A stretch of 55,157 bases of DNA, taken from assembly GCA_016124665.1 (NCBI GenBank), contig WGNH01000045.1, forward strand, positions 1-55,157. The letters run 5' to 3'. This stretch comes from Alphaproteobacteria bacterium. GTDB lineage: Bacteria; Pseudomonadota; Alphaproteobacteria; Caulobacterales; Maricaulaceae. This document shows, in pieces, positions 42,993-51,643 of this stretch (positions are counted from its first letter, which is position 1; the number at the start of each line of letters is the position of its first letter). The translations under genes were made by a program, and so were the position numbers. Below the pieces are notes generated by a model. That model worked only from the letters and a program-made list of their open reading frames with translations, did no database searches and was not told the origin of the DNA.

Positions 42993-44360
42993 CTAGCGGG
43001 AATAAAGCTCCGAGATGGACAGAACGGCATTGGCCGTAGATGAGCCATAGGTTCCGACCCAGATGTCGTACTGACCACTGATGGGCGCCATGCGCAGCAA
43101 GGGGTTCAGCCCCGCATTGCCGCTGTCATCATCGCAGTGCCAGTTGCCATTGGGATCATTGATCACCAGAGTGGTGTCCGAGTTGGAACCGACGGAGAAA
43201 TACAGCTCCGGAAATGAGCCGCCCTGGAACATGAGGCGGACATCCGGCGCGTTGGCTACAAAGCCGGCACACTGACCATTACTCCAGTTCGACGCGCTAT
43301 TCGCGCCACCGGCGACGACCTGCACTTCAAAAGGATCGGGTGTGAAGCCAGACCGCAGCGTATAGGTGCCATAGGTCGGGGCGAGTGTGTAATCCGGGCC
43401 AGAGGGGCGGCGCGGGGGCGGAGCCGTGACGGGCGCGCTGCCATAGGGCAGCTCGGAAACGGACAATGTGGCCGGTGCGGTATTACGGCCATAGGTGCCG
43501 ACCCAGATATCATACTGACCGCTGATAGGCGTCAGTTCAATCAACGGGTTGAGGCCATTGCCGCTGTCGTCATCACACCACCAGGTGCCATTCGGGTCGT
43601 TGACGATCAGCGTGGTGTCGGCATTGGACAACGCCGAGAAGTTGATGCGGTTGAAAGCACCGCCGGTGAAGTTGATGCGGATATCCGGTGCGGAGGCGGC
43701 ATAGCCCCGGCATTCGTAATTTGTCATGGCGCCAACATCGGTGTTGCCACCCGCGACCACCTGGAAAGTCTGCGGATCCGGCAGGAAACCGGAACGCAGA
43801 TTATAGGTGCCATAGGTCGGATTCAGATTGTAATCGGGTCCGGACACCGGCGCCGGCATGACCGGAGCGGGCGGCTGAACCGGCGCGCTGCCATAAGGCA
43901 GTTCGGAAATGGCCAGCGTGGCAGGCGCCGTATTACGGCCATAAGTGCCGACCCAGATGTCATACTGACCGCTGATAGGCGTCAGTTCGATCAACGGGTT
44001 GAGGCCATTGCCGCTGTCATCATCGCACCACCAGGTGCCGTTCGGGTCATTGACGATCAGAGTCGTATCGGCATTGGAAACGGCAGAAAAATTGATCCGA
44101 TCGAAAGAGCCACCCGAAAAATTGATGCGGACATCAGGAGCCTCGGCAGCATAGCCGGCGCACTGACCGCCGGTCGCGGCAGAGACATTGTTCGGACCAC
44201 CGGCGATGACATTGATGGTCTGTGGATCCGGCAGGAAACCGGAACGCAAATTATATGTCCCGTAGGTCGGATTGAGATTGTAATTCTGTGCGGACCCAGG
44301 CGCTGTCAGGCAGGCCATTGCCAACACGGCCACGCTGAGCGTGGCATGATGATGTTTCAT
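42993..44360 (-). CDS. Secreted protein with three pre-peptidase-like repeats
   Basis: A 455-aa exported protein with signal peptide (KHHHATLSVAVLAMACLTAPGSAQ) and three ~145-residue repeats. Each begins YxLxPTYGTYxLRSGFxPDP and contains CAGxxAxAPDVRxxFxGG. Each ends with ADTTLIVNDPNGTWWCDDDSG and GQYDIWVGTYGxxTAxAxLxISE. The repeats are joined by Pro-rich linkers. The fold resembles the pre-peptidase C-terminal (PPC) beta-sandwich, often calcium-binding, in secreted proteins; there is no protease domain. Repeats 1 and 2 are nearly identical in DNA; repeat 3 is diverged. The start at 44360 follows GGGGAAA; the frame to 44438 is rejected. A terminator follows. Confidence 0.83.
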   Translation of the reverse strand: MKHHHATLSVAVLAMACLTAPGSAQNYNLNPTYGTYNLRSGFLPDPQTINVIAGGPNNVSAATGGQCAGYAAEAPDVRINFSGGSFDRINFSAVSNADTTLIVNDPNGTWWCDDDSGNGLNPLIELTPISGQYDIWVGTYGRNTAPATLAISELPYGSAPVQPPAPVMPAPVSGPDYNLNPTYGTYNLRSGFLPDPQTFQVVAGGNTDVGAMTNYECRGYAASAPDIRINFTGGAFNRINFSALSNADTTLIVNDPNGTWWCDDDSGNGLNPLIELTPISGQYDIWVGTYGRNTAPATLSVSELPYGSAPVTAPPPRRPSGPDYTLAPTYGTYTLRSGFTPDPFEVQVVAGGANSASNWSNGQCAGFVANAPDVRLMFQGGSFPELYFSVGSNSDTTLVINDPNGNWHCDDDSGNAGLNPLLRMAPISGQYDIWVGTYGSSTANAVLSISELYSR

Positions 44361-44494
44361 TGATTTCCCCAATAATATTTGGCGCGATTTACCGCGCACG
44401 GCGTTGACTATGCGCCAATCGCGAATTTGCGCAATCAAATACGGCTACAAAGATAAAATAAATTCAAAAGGATATAAAACCCAAACGGGAAATG

Positions 44495-44787: not shown

Positions 44788-45192
44788 TCAGAAGAAGCTG
44801 AAAATGGCGCCTGCCAGAAGGTAGGCTGCCAGCTGATTGCCGAAATGGATCAGCGTCAGTTCCAGTTTCTGCTTTTCATAGATATGCGCGAGAAGTGCGG
44901 TTGTGGCACTGAAAAAAAGCCAGACAAAAAAGGCCGTCTTCATGGAGGCCAACAGGCCTTCGGCACCTTTCCAGTTCAGCACCAGTCCGATGCCGATCGC
45001 GGCGACAAGTGAGTTTGTTATCCCCTTGCCCATGACGACGGCCATATTGGTGTCTTTCATGGACTCTTCGGTGAAGCCGTTCAGAACCATCCAGCGTTTG
45101 CCAAACAGCGGCCCGTACCAGAGAAAGCCCACAACCATAAAGCCGAGTGTGGCCAGCAAAACTGCTATGATATTGATACCGTAGAATTCCAT
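44788..45192 (-). CDS. DUF1761-family membrane protein
   Basis: A 134-aa protein with four hydrophobic helices. It shows IIAVLLATLGFMVVGFLWYGPLFGKRWM, NSLVAAIGIGLVLNWKGAEG and the C-terminal GNQLAAYLLAGAIFSFF. The pattern fits DUF1761, small inner-membrane proteins of unknown function. The start has GAGGCGG 4-8 bases upstream. It lies 9 bp after a second protein with the same build, so the two are probably co-transcribed. Confidence 0.8.
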   Translation of the reverse strand: MEFYGINIIAVLLATLGFMVVGFLWYGPLFGKRWMVLNGFTEESMKDTNMAVVMGKGITNSLVAAIGIGLVLNWKGAEGLLASMKTAFFVWLFFSATTALLAHIYEKQKLELTLIHFGNQLAAYLLAGAIFSFF

Positions 45193-45201
45193 TACCGCCT
45201 C

Positions 45202-45612
45202 CTATTTCGCGCGGCCAAAGGACAGAACAGCCCCGGCAATCGCAAAGCCGATAACCATGTGCAGGCCATCCATGACAAACATTCTGACATTGTAGGCCGG
45301 ACCATATGCATACCCATACGCCATGGCGGCGACGGCAAATGCAATGGCAAGAAGGGCCCCAAGTTTGACATATCCCATCAAATCCGACTTGCCGAGCTTG
45401 TTGGCGAGCATTGCTATACCCGCTACAGGTATGAAGGGTATGATGAGCCCCAACACCATCTTCCAAGCGGGCGGACTGAAATCGGCAGGAACATTGGATA
45501 TTCTCATCCAGTATTCGCCGAAAATGACACCATACATCAGGAAGCCGAAAATGTAGAAAGCCAGTCCGGCCAGGACAAAAAATAGAAGGTTGTGGCCAAA
45601 TATGCGTGGCAT
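45202..45612 (-). CDS. DUF1761-like membrane protein
   Basis: A 136-aa four-helix membrane protein: [51 protein letters not shown] and [18 protein letters not shown]. The N-terminal GFLMYGxxFGxxWM pattern matches the GFLWYGPLFGKRWM of the next gene, so the pair look like diverged tandem copies. Function unknown. It is divergent from metG, with about 120 bp between the starts. Confidence 0.76.
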
Positions 45613-49084: not shown

Positions 49085-49483
49085 ATGGTGGAACGCGTCT
49101 CGTCCGGCGCGGTCTGGGAGGATCGCGTCGGCTATCGCCGTGCTGTTAAGGATGGCCCGCATATCTGGGTCTCCGGCACGGTGGCGGTCGGCGAGGACGG
49201 CCGGCCCTATGCCCCAGGCGACATGGAAGCCCAGACGCGGCGCTGTCTGGAGATCATCGAGGCGGCGCTGGTGAAGCTCGGCGCGTCGATGAAGAATGTC
49301 CGCCGCACCCGCGTTTTCGTCACCGATATGAGCGCGGATGCGCAGGCGGCCTTTGCCCGCGCGCATTCGGCGGTGTTTGGCGATTTCCCGCCCGCCTCGG
49401 CGCTCTATGGCATTTCCGCGCTGGCCGCGCCGGATTTCCTCGTCGAGGTCGAAGCCGATGCCTATCTGGCGGCGGAGGCATGA
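49085..49483 (+). CDS. RidA family protein
   Basis: A 132-aa protein of the RidA/YjgF family, which hydrolyses reactive enamine/imine intermediates or has related roles. It shows VGYRRAVKDGPHIWVSGTVAVGEDG, QTRRCLEIIEAALVKLGASMKNVRRTRVFVTDM and PPASALYGISALAAPDFLVEVEADAY. The Arg that anchors substrate in canonical RidA (in the PxR segment) is not evident, so it probably belongs to a divergent subgroup. No signal peptide. It starts 2 bp after the amidohydrolase stop and overlaps the avidin-like gene. Confidence 0.88.
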   Translation: MVERVSSGAVWEDRVGYRRAVKDGPHIWVSGTVAVGEDGRPYAPGDMEAQTRRCLEIIEAALVKLGASMKNVRRTRVFVTDMSADAQAAFARAHSAVFGDFPPASALYGISALAAPDFLVEVEADAYLAAEA

Positions 49484-49896
49484 TGCGTTTCCTGCTTTTG
49501 ATTTTGTGGGCCGTCTGGCCTGCCACAGCGTTCGCGGATGATCTGGCCGTGCCGTCGGTCTGGGAAAACCAGAGCGGATCGGTGCTTTTTCTCGATACGA
49601 TGGATGATGAGGGCCGCCTGACCGGGCGCTATGTCAACGGGGCGGCGGGCTATTCCTGCCAGGGAATCGAATATGACGTTGAAGGCCGGGTCTTCGAACC
49701 ATTGATCACCTTCAATGTGATCTGGCGCGCGGAGGCGGAAACCTGCCACACCATCACGAGCTGGACCGGGGCGATCGAGGGCGATGTCATCGCCACCGAA
49801 TGGGCGCTGGTGCGCTGGGTGGCGCCGGACCCCGTGAGCGGGGAGGGCGGGTTGGGCCGGTATGCCGGGGAGAGCCGGTTTGTGCGCCGCGACTGA
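49483..49896 (+). CDS. Avidin-family (rhizavidin-like) exported protein
   Basis: A 137-aa protein with a signal peptide (MRFLLLILWAVWPATAFA) and a small beta-barrel matching the avidin family. ENQSGS aligns with YNQLGS of streptavidin (Asn29, Ser33 in the pocket), TGRYVN with TGxY (Tyr50), and Trp81 in FNVIW with Trp79. CHTITSWTG matches the HSATTWSG pocket strand (Thr92, Trp94), and ATEWALV has Trp107. Cys59 (YSCQG) and Cys88 match the disulfide pair of dimeric rhizavidin. The pocket Asp of GxDTF is Ser131 (GESRF). Biotin is the likely ligand but affinity is uncertain. The chosen ATG at 49483 has GGAGG upstream; 49480 is an alternative. It is coupled to RidA. Confidence 0.85.
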   Translation: MRFLLLILWAVWPATAFADDLAVPSVWENQSGSVLFLDTMDDEGRLTGRYVNGAAGYSCQGIEYDVEGRVFEPLITFNVIWRAEAETCHTITSWTGAIEGDVIATEWALVRWVAPDPVSGEGGLGRYAGESRFVRRD

Positions 49897-49973
49897 CGCC
49901 ATTGTGAGCATTTGCGCGTTGCGCGGGCGTGTCAGCCTGCTTAACTGCGGCGCGAAACAGAGGGGCTGACTTC

Positions 49974-51214: not shown

Positions 51215-51643
51215 ATGCTTCGACTCATTCTCATGATCTCGGCTCTGGCAGTCGGTTTCGTTGCCATCGGCGAGTTGTCATTGGTCGATGCGCAGCAACG
51301 CGCCGTCTTGCGCCAGACGCAGGCTCAGACCGACACAAGCTTCAGTGACGCATTCCAGTCCGCAATGGAAAGCGGTGATTATGCGCAAGCGGCGGCTCTG
51401 GTCAGCTCCGGGCGCGCGACAGGTCATCGTCAGCATCGCGCCATGACGCCATCCGCTTCGTCGTCGGCCGCCACCAGCCTGGCTGCCAACACGCCGCCGC
51501 CAGAGACCGCCGACTATACCTGCAACAGTGGCAATTGCGCGTGTGCGGGGGCATCGGACTGTGTGGCCATGGCGCCGATCTGTGTCGAGGGCACCATCGG
51601 CAGCAACGATTACGGCTGCACCTGTCAGGAAGCGACCGAATAG
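51215..51643 (+). CDS. Small exported Cys-rich protein
   Basis: A 142-aa protein with an N-terminal export signal (LRLILMISALAVGFVAIGELSLVDA), possibly uncleaved. A short helical region (DTSFSDAFQSAMESGDYAQAAALVSSGRATG) follows, then a Ser/Ala/Thr-rich linker and a compact C-terminal domain with seven cysteines (YTCNSGNCACAGASDC, PICVEG, GCTCQEATE). An odd cysteine count could allow a disulfide partner. The start has GGGGAG close upstream. No family recognised. Confidence 0.72.
   Translation: MLRLILMISALAVGFVAIGELSLVDAQQRAVLRQTQAQTDTSFSDAFQSAMESGDYAQAAALVSSGRATGHRQHRAMTPSASSSAATSLAANTPPPETADYTCNSGNCACAGASDCVAMAPICVEGTIGSNDYGCTCQEATE

Follow-up and report, generated by a model that had tools for sequence, protein, structure and literature searches.

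An avidin-family protein of Hyphobacterium with rhizavidin-type cysteines and serine at the streptavidin Asp128 position, encoded in a conserved gene set

Wilavidin, the closest homologue of the avidin described here, forms hexamers. A full set of contacts to the ureido ring of biotin is expected for classic very tight binding and is unnecessary for membership of the avidin family. One of these contacts is made in bradavidin by Asp107, the equivalent of streptavidin Asp128, which bonds ureido N1 (PMC5398887). Replacement of this residue is reported to be costly. Streptavidin D128A loses 4.4 kcal/mol (PMC4888747), or ~10^3-fold by our conversion, and avidin N118M binds biotin ~10^6-fold more weakly (Kd 4.2 nM) while retaining HABA binding, ~1.5-fold better than wild type (PMC3201017). 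A survey of bacterial avidins takes in 118 species, divided among 11 clades, and treats pocket substitutions in general; neither "Asp128" nor "Asn118" occurs in its main text, and the parts covered here describe no Asp-less group (PMC8033661). The literature covered on wilavidin, on low-affinity avidins (engineered streptavidin only), on Maricaulaceae and on Hyphobacterium, which included few subscription papers, gave no description of this Asp-less variant. The reasons for which bacteria produce avidins are poorly understood, and near-irreversible binding handicaps avidin tools; a natural lineage with the pocket but without the residue whose loss costs a thousand- to million-fold is a direct test case.

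We have analyzed a window, the whole stretch of 55,157 nucleotides of DNA, from a marine bacterium. It encodes an avidin-family protein of 138 amino acids (49480..49896, plus strand), identified by its ORF, PF01382, PDB sequence matches and predicted fold. An earlier note on this DNA had given the ORF 137 residues by starting at the adjacent ATG at 49483; the ORF itself stands, and the ATG at 49480 overlaps the stop of the preceding RidA gene by four bases (ATGA). Residues 1-19 (49480..49536, plus strand) appear by eye to be a signal peptide cut after AFA, and the protein is probably exported. The family membership that the note had read from short motifs is borne out by the Pfam profile (E 1.7e-10, 41.7 bits, cut-off 24). 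The match spans profile positions 4-98 of 116 and ends ahead of strand 8, so that the C-terminal part of the protein diverges by more than one residue. The NCBIfam streptavidin equivalog NF047623 scores below its cut-off (19.6 vs 300 bits). Matches to PDB sequences include wilavidin (1.6e-22), shwanavidin (1.2e-20) and rhizavidin (6.3e-16), and the closest named relative is Hyphobacterium indicum, with 93% identity. The gene is the sole PF01382 match in its own assembly (98.3% complete). An AlphaFold2 model built from three sequences (the window, L002 and L003) has the eight predicted strands of the avidin barrel, with a mean pLDDT of 85.6. Its first Foldseek matches in the PDB were shwanavidin, wilavidin and rhizavidin; among the best 50 matches listed, which also include bradavidin 2 and agroavidin, query TM was 0.75-0.82, and the best E value was 7.7e-10. 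Superposed on shwanavidin and wilavidin, the model has an rmsd of 4.0-4.6, which is not small.

The pocket residues named in the earlier note are all present, in the 138-residue numbering N30, S34, Y51, W82, T93, W95 and W108. Together with N53 and two cysteines they are shared with wilavidin, hoefavidin, afifavidin and shwanavidin; T91 takes the place of a Ser in that alignment. The cysteines were correctly recognized as a rhizavidin-type pair by alignment: Cys60 in the L3,4 loop (49657..49659, plus strand) and Cys89 in the L5,6 loop (49744..49746, plus strand), the predicted first and second members of the disulfide, are invariant across five copies from the genus. In line with the note's reading that Trp120 has no counterpart, these five copies have no Trp beyond the end of strand 7 (the L7,8 stretch); W113, which closes strand 7, is replaced by Met in L003. 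Four of the five ureido-ring contacts (Asn23, Ser27, Tyr43, Ser45/Asn, Asp128/Asn) are kept, and the fifth, Asp128, is Ser. The strand-8 motif is GESRF (49867..49881, plus strand), vs GEDIF in wilavidin, GQDDF in hoefavidin, GSDTF in afifavidin and GQDVF in shwanavidin, all four aligned solved homologues thus having GxDxF. The codon AGC at 49873..49875 (plus strand) specifies Ser132, which the earlier note had counted as Ser131. Because GESRF aligns without a gap on GEDIF, the change from Asp to Ser is no choice of alignment.

Of the 76 distinct rows aligned, four are PDB segments. Both cysteines occur in 20 rows, with Asp in the Asp128 column in 15 and Ser in 5; the Asp rows include an out-of-frame fragment from genus genome G007, whose omission leaves 14 Asp and 5 Ser. 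The division follows the genus: all five Hyphobacterium rows (the window, H. indicum L002, the Hyphobacterium MAG L003, L034 from G001 and L036 from G004) have Ser, vs Asp in 14 of 14 others, among which L065 and L066 nearly duplicate each other. Where the cysteine pair is absent (56 rows), this column has Ser in 27, Ala in 9, Asp in 15, Leu in 4 and a gap in 1. Every one of the 36 Ser/Ala rows belongs to the bacterial family of the window, f1 (e.g. L041, L042, L048); they were grouped by residue before the tree was built, and their being all Asp-less is a definition, not a result. Exceptions within f1 are L004, L005, L009 and L010, which retain Asp, and the remote row L038, which has Leu. PF01382 matches were found in 48 genomes out of 199 drawn from the organism itself and from its genus, family and order (the family being over-sampled), and are uncommon outside this group, with 6 of 385 class genomes and 16 of 398 phylum genomes sampled (own genome counted).

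A tree was made from 69 rows and 106 columns, with the Asp128 column excluded and six rows dropped beforehand. On these 106 columns, for which the bootstrap is unsettled, a branch with support 97/86 sets the 19 disulfide-type rows apart from the rest, and the five genus rows group at 99/94. The Ser/Ala rows are not resolved as one clade: three changes are needed, of which the starred branches force one. Over the whole tree the Asp/no-Asp state changes four times, direction not given. A single origin of all Asp-less avidins was rejected, since the genus rows and 35 of the 36 Ser/Ala rows as a clade gave an AU p of 0.022, on 106 columns with long branches. From the sequences, at least two separate Asp-less groups are therefore likelier. 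An origin from phages or plasmids was also considered and discarded: no phage match was found at E 1e-5, and the 43 plasmid records that match the avidin are all from rhizobial genera, at <60% identity.

The avidin gene lies in a conserved set consisting of M20 amidohydrolase, RidA, avidin and permease. In the window these genes are all on the plus strand, the first two lying 2 bases apart, the second and third overlapping by 4, and the last two being separated by 77: an M20 amidohydrolase (TIGR01891; 47754..49082), the first of the set, with a signal peptide by eye; a RidA-family protein (PF01042; 49085..49483); the avidin; and a DUF819 membrane protein (PF05684; 49974..51143, an upstream GTG at 49929 being possible), a putative transporter. 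The DUF819 literature covered gave no substrate. A small Cys-rich protein follows (51215..51643, plus strand; no Pfam or NCBIfam match), whose membership of the set is uncertain; the protein has a Cys-rich tail and is also found 3' of avidin in L002, L003, L034 and L036. The gene order is repeated in H. indicum and G001, and in G004 with a wider gap ahead of avidin. L003 has M20, RidA, an amino-acid permease overlapping avidin by 4 bases, and then avidin; G006 has M20, RidA, an amino-acid permease and an ORF that is a scar of avidin and DUF819. G002 has M20, with no RidA, avidin or DUF819 match within the stretch taken. DUF819 matches were found in G000, G001, G003, G004 and G007 (split), and none in G002, G005 or G006. 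Elsewhere in the window, on the minus strand, 42993-44438 encodes three similar repeats of ~130 residues (YNLNPTYGTYNLRSGF...) with no Pfam match over cut-off and no NCBIfam match, and 44788-45612 encodes two adjoining DUF1761 membrane proteins.

The earlier note had not recorded the gene set, the linkage to transporters or the Asp-less avidins elsewhere in the family. In 26 of the 36 Ser/Ala loci the avidin is preceded on the same strand by a gene for an NhaC-type (PF03553) transporter. Ten loci lack it; L008, L024 and L039 are cut by contig ends, and most others have ~1.4 kb of flank, so that the gene may be missed, while L045, with longer flanks, has no NhaC-type gene. Among the 26 Asp-keeping loci (mostly ~1.5 kb each side) no relative of NhaC, APC or DUF819 was found. 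By a crude measure, a same-strand neighbour with at least five predicted membrane segments, linkage is seen in all 5 genus loci, in 23 of the 36 Ser/Ala loci and in 1 of the 26 Asp-keeping loci (L073, with 7 segments). By lineage, with lineages of our own grouping, the post-hoc comparison is 2/2 vs 1/16 (Fisher p 0.02). Across the window, 11 of 53 ORFs have such a neighbour, and given this base rate, the post-hoc comparison and the self-made lineages, we rejected the linkage as proof of function. A transporter-linked, reversible role is attractive but draws on two groups and a post-hoc comparison. Its widest form is very doubtful: bacteria of f1, perhaps more than once, would have made avidin a reversible periplasmic receptor, loss of Asp going with coupling to an inner-membrane transporter (DUF819 or an amino-acid permease in Hyphobacterium, NhaC type elsewhere), in which case the permeases would be candidates for the transport of biotin or its amides, and M20 for a bacterial biotinidase-like amidase.

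The avidin is dispensable, as 2 of the 8 genus genomes are without the gene or hold a remnant: in G002 it is absent by PF01382 search of genome and locus, and in G006 there is only a short ORF (L105 3643-3801) that starts like avidin and ends like the C-terminus of DUF819, a deletion scar. In G007 the copy, the sixth of the genus, is split across frames, with GVSRF in a different frame. These three genomes are what favours a decaying gene, whose missing Asp would have no meaning, a reading that we regard as extremely improbable. The G007 breaks are probably an assembly error and were not counted as loss, because the MetG, RlmB, M20, SSF symporter and DUF819 matches in the same 16-kb stretch (L107) are all frame-broken like the avidin match; the pseudogene reading of this copy was rejected on the same grounds. 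The five readable copies show constraint. They share an identical AGC codon for Ser132, their ten pairs have dN/dS of 0.21-0.50, and residues are invariant at 12 of the 13 positions that make up the pocket and the disulfide (a list of our own choice that includes Ser132), vs 36 of the 93 others compared (Fisher p 0.0003). The sequences thus indicate that the Asp-less avidin is a variant kept under purifying selection, not one in decay.

The earlier note had proposed either a natural lower-affinity or reversible biotin binder or one retuned to another ligand. This interpretation is supported in part: the assignment to the family and to the disulfide type is upheld, as are the otherwise intact pocket and the missing Asp; the readable genus copies all carry Ser, and the 12 invariant positions make us lean to the weaker biotin binder over another ligand. 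We infer export, ligand, lower affinity and reversible role alike. It is fairly likely that this disulfide-type exported avidin, without the Asp for ureido N1, has remained a binder of biotin or a close biotin conjugate at the usual site, a weaker and exchangeable one, because mutants of the equivalent residue lose ~10^3 to 10^6-fold in biotin affinity. By analogy with these mutants its hold on biotin or a biotin-like molecule is probably loose rather than near-irreversible. In such a mechanism the usual pocket would have been retained but its hydrogen-bond partner for ureido N1, the Asp, given up; Ser cannot form an equivalent charged contact, affinity would fall by orders of magnitude and release would be faster, and the avidin would act as an exchangeable periplasmic or secreted binder, not as a near-permanent trap. 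The mutant figures come from tetramers with other side chains (Ala, Met), and the hydroxyl of Ser might preserve a bond, either weaker or mediated by water. It is speculative that the ligand might be a biotin amide on which the M20 enzyme acts. Biotin auxotrophy was rejected as a motive for scavenging: bioB is above cut-off in 7 of 8 genus genomes (the exception, G004, is 69% complete) and BioY is found in none of the 8, so that need for biotin is no obvious driver. There is a minor chance that biotin is no longer the natural ligand and that the pocket has been retuned, for example to a substrate or product of the M20 enzyme or the permease. The ureido contact is lost in 5 of 5 readable genus copies, the linkage to M20, RidA and permease is conserved, and avidin N118M keeps HABA while its biotin binding collapses (PMC3201017); however, the residues aligned with the other ureido contacts, N30, S34, Y51 and N53, are invariant, a conservation not obviously required by a new ligand. 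Retention of the disulfide cysteines and of all other pocket residues would also suit an ordinary tight trap, defending by sequestration, in which the disulfide-locked loop compensates for Ser and affinity is near that of rhizavidin. A defence role of bacterial avidins is discussed in PMC8033661. This is quite unlikely, as Asp is kept in all 14 other rows with the cysteine pair, and D128A and N118M, the two published mutants found at this position, lose affinity heavily.

If binding by the Hyphobacterium avidin is indeed reversible, this would speak for roles in transport or buffering in addition to sequestration, and the protein would be a reversible biotin binder of natural origin. Specific candidate genes are indicated by the linkage to transporters.

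Among known avidins the best sequence match is wilavidin (7ouq, 7p8y; 3.1e-34 by the genus-led profile), which has both cysteines, the same pocket and a comparable strand 8 but retains Asp, and whose structure was solved with biotin according to its PDB title. Shwanavidin (3szh, 3szj) and rhizavidin (3ew1, 3ew2) are likewise disulfide-type and among the top matches in both sequence and fold, although both differ in having Asp at the 128 position, within GQDVF in shwanavidin and GQDTF in the Rhizobium gene L065, which is identical to L084, a Rhizobium etli plasmid gene. The other 36 Asp-less avidins of the family resemble the window avidin in having no Asp at this position, but they have no cysteine pair and carry Phe for the strand-5 Trp. 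Streptavidin D128A and avidin N118M have lost the same hydrogen-bonding residue; they are laboratory mutants of tetramers, whereas the change in the window is natural and genus-wide.
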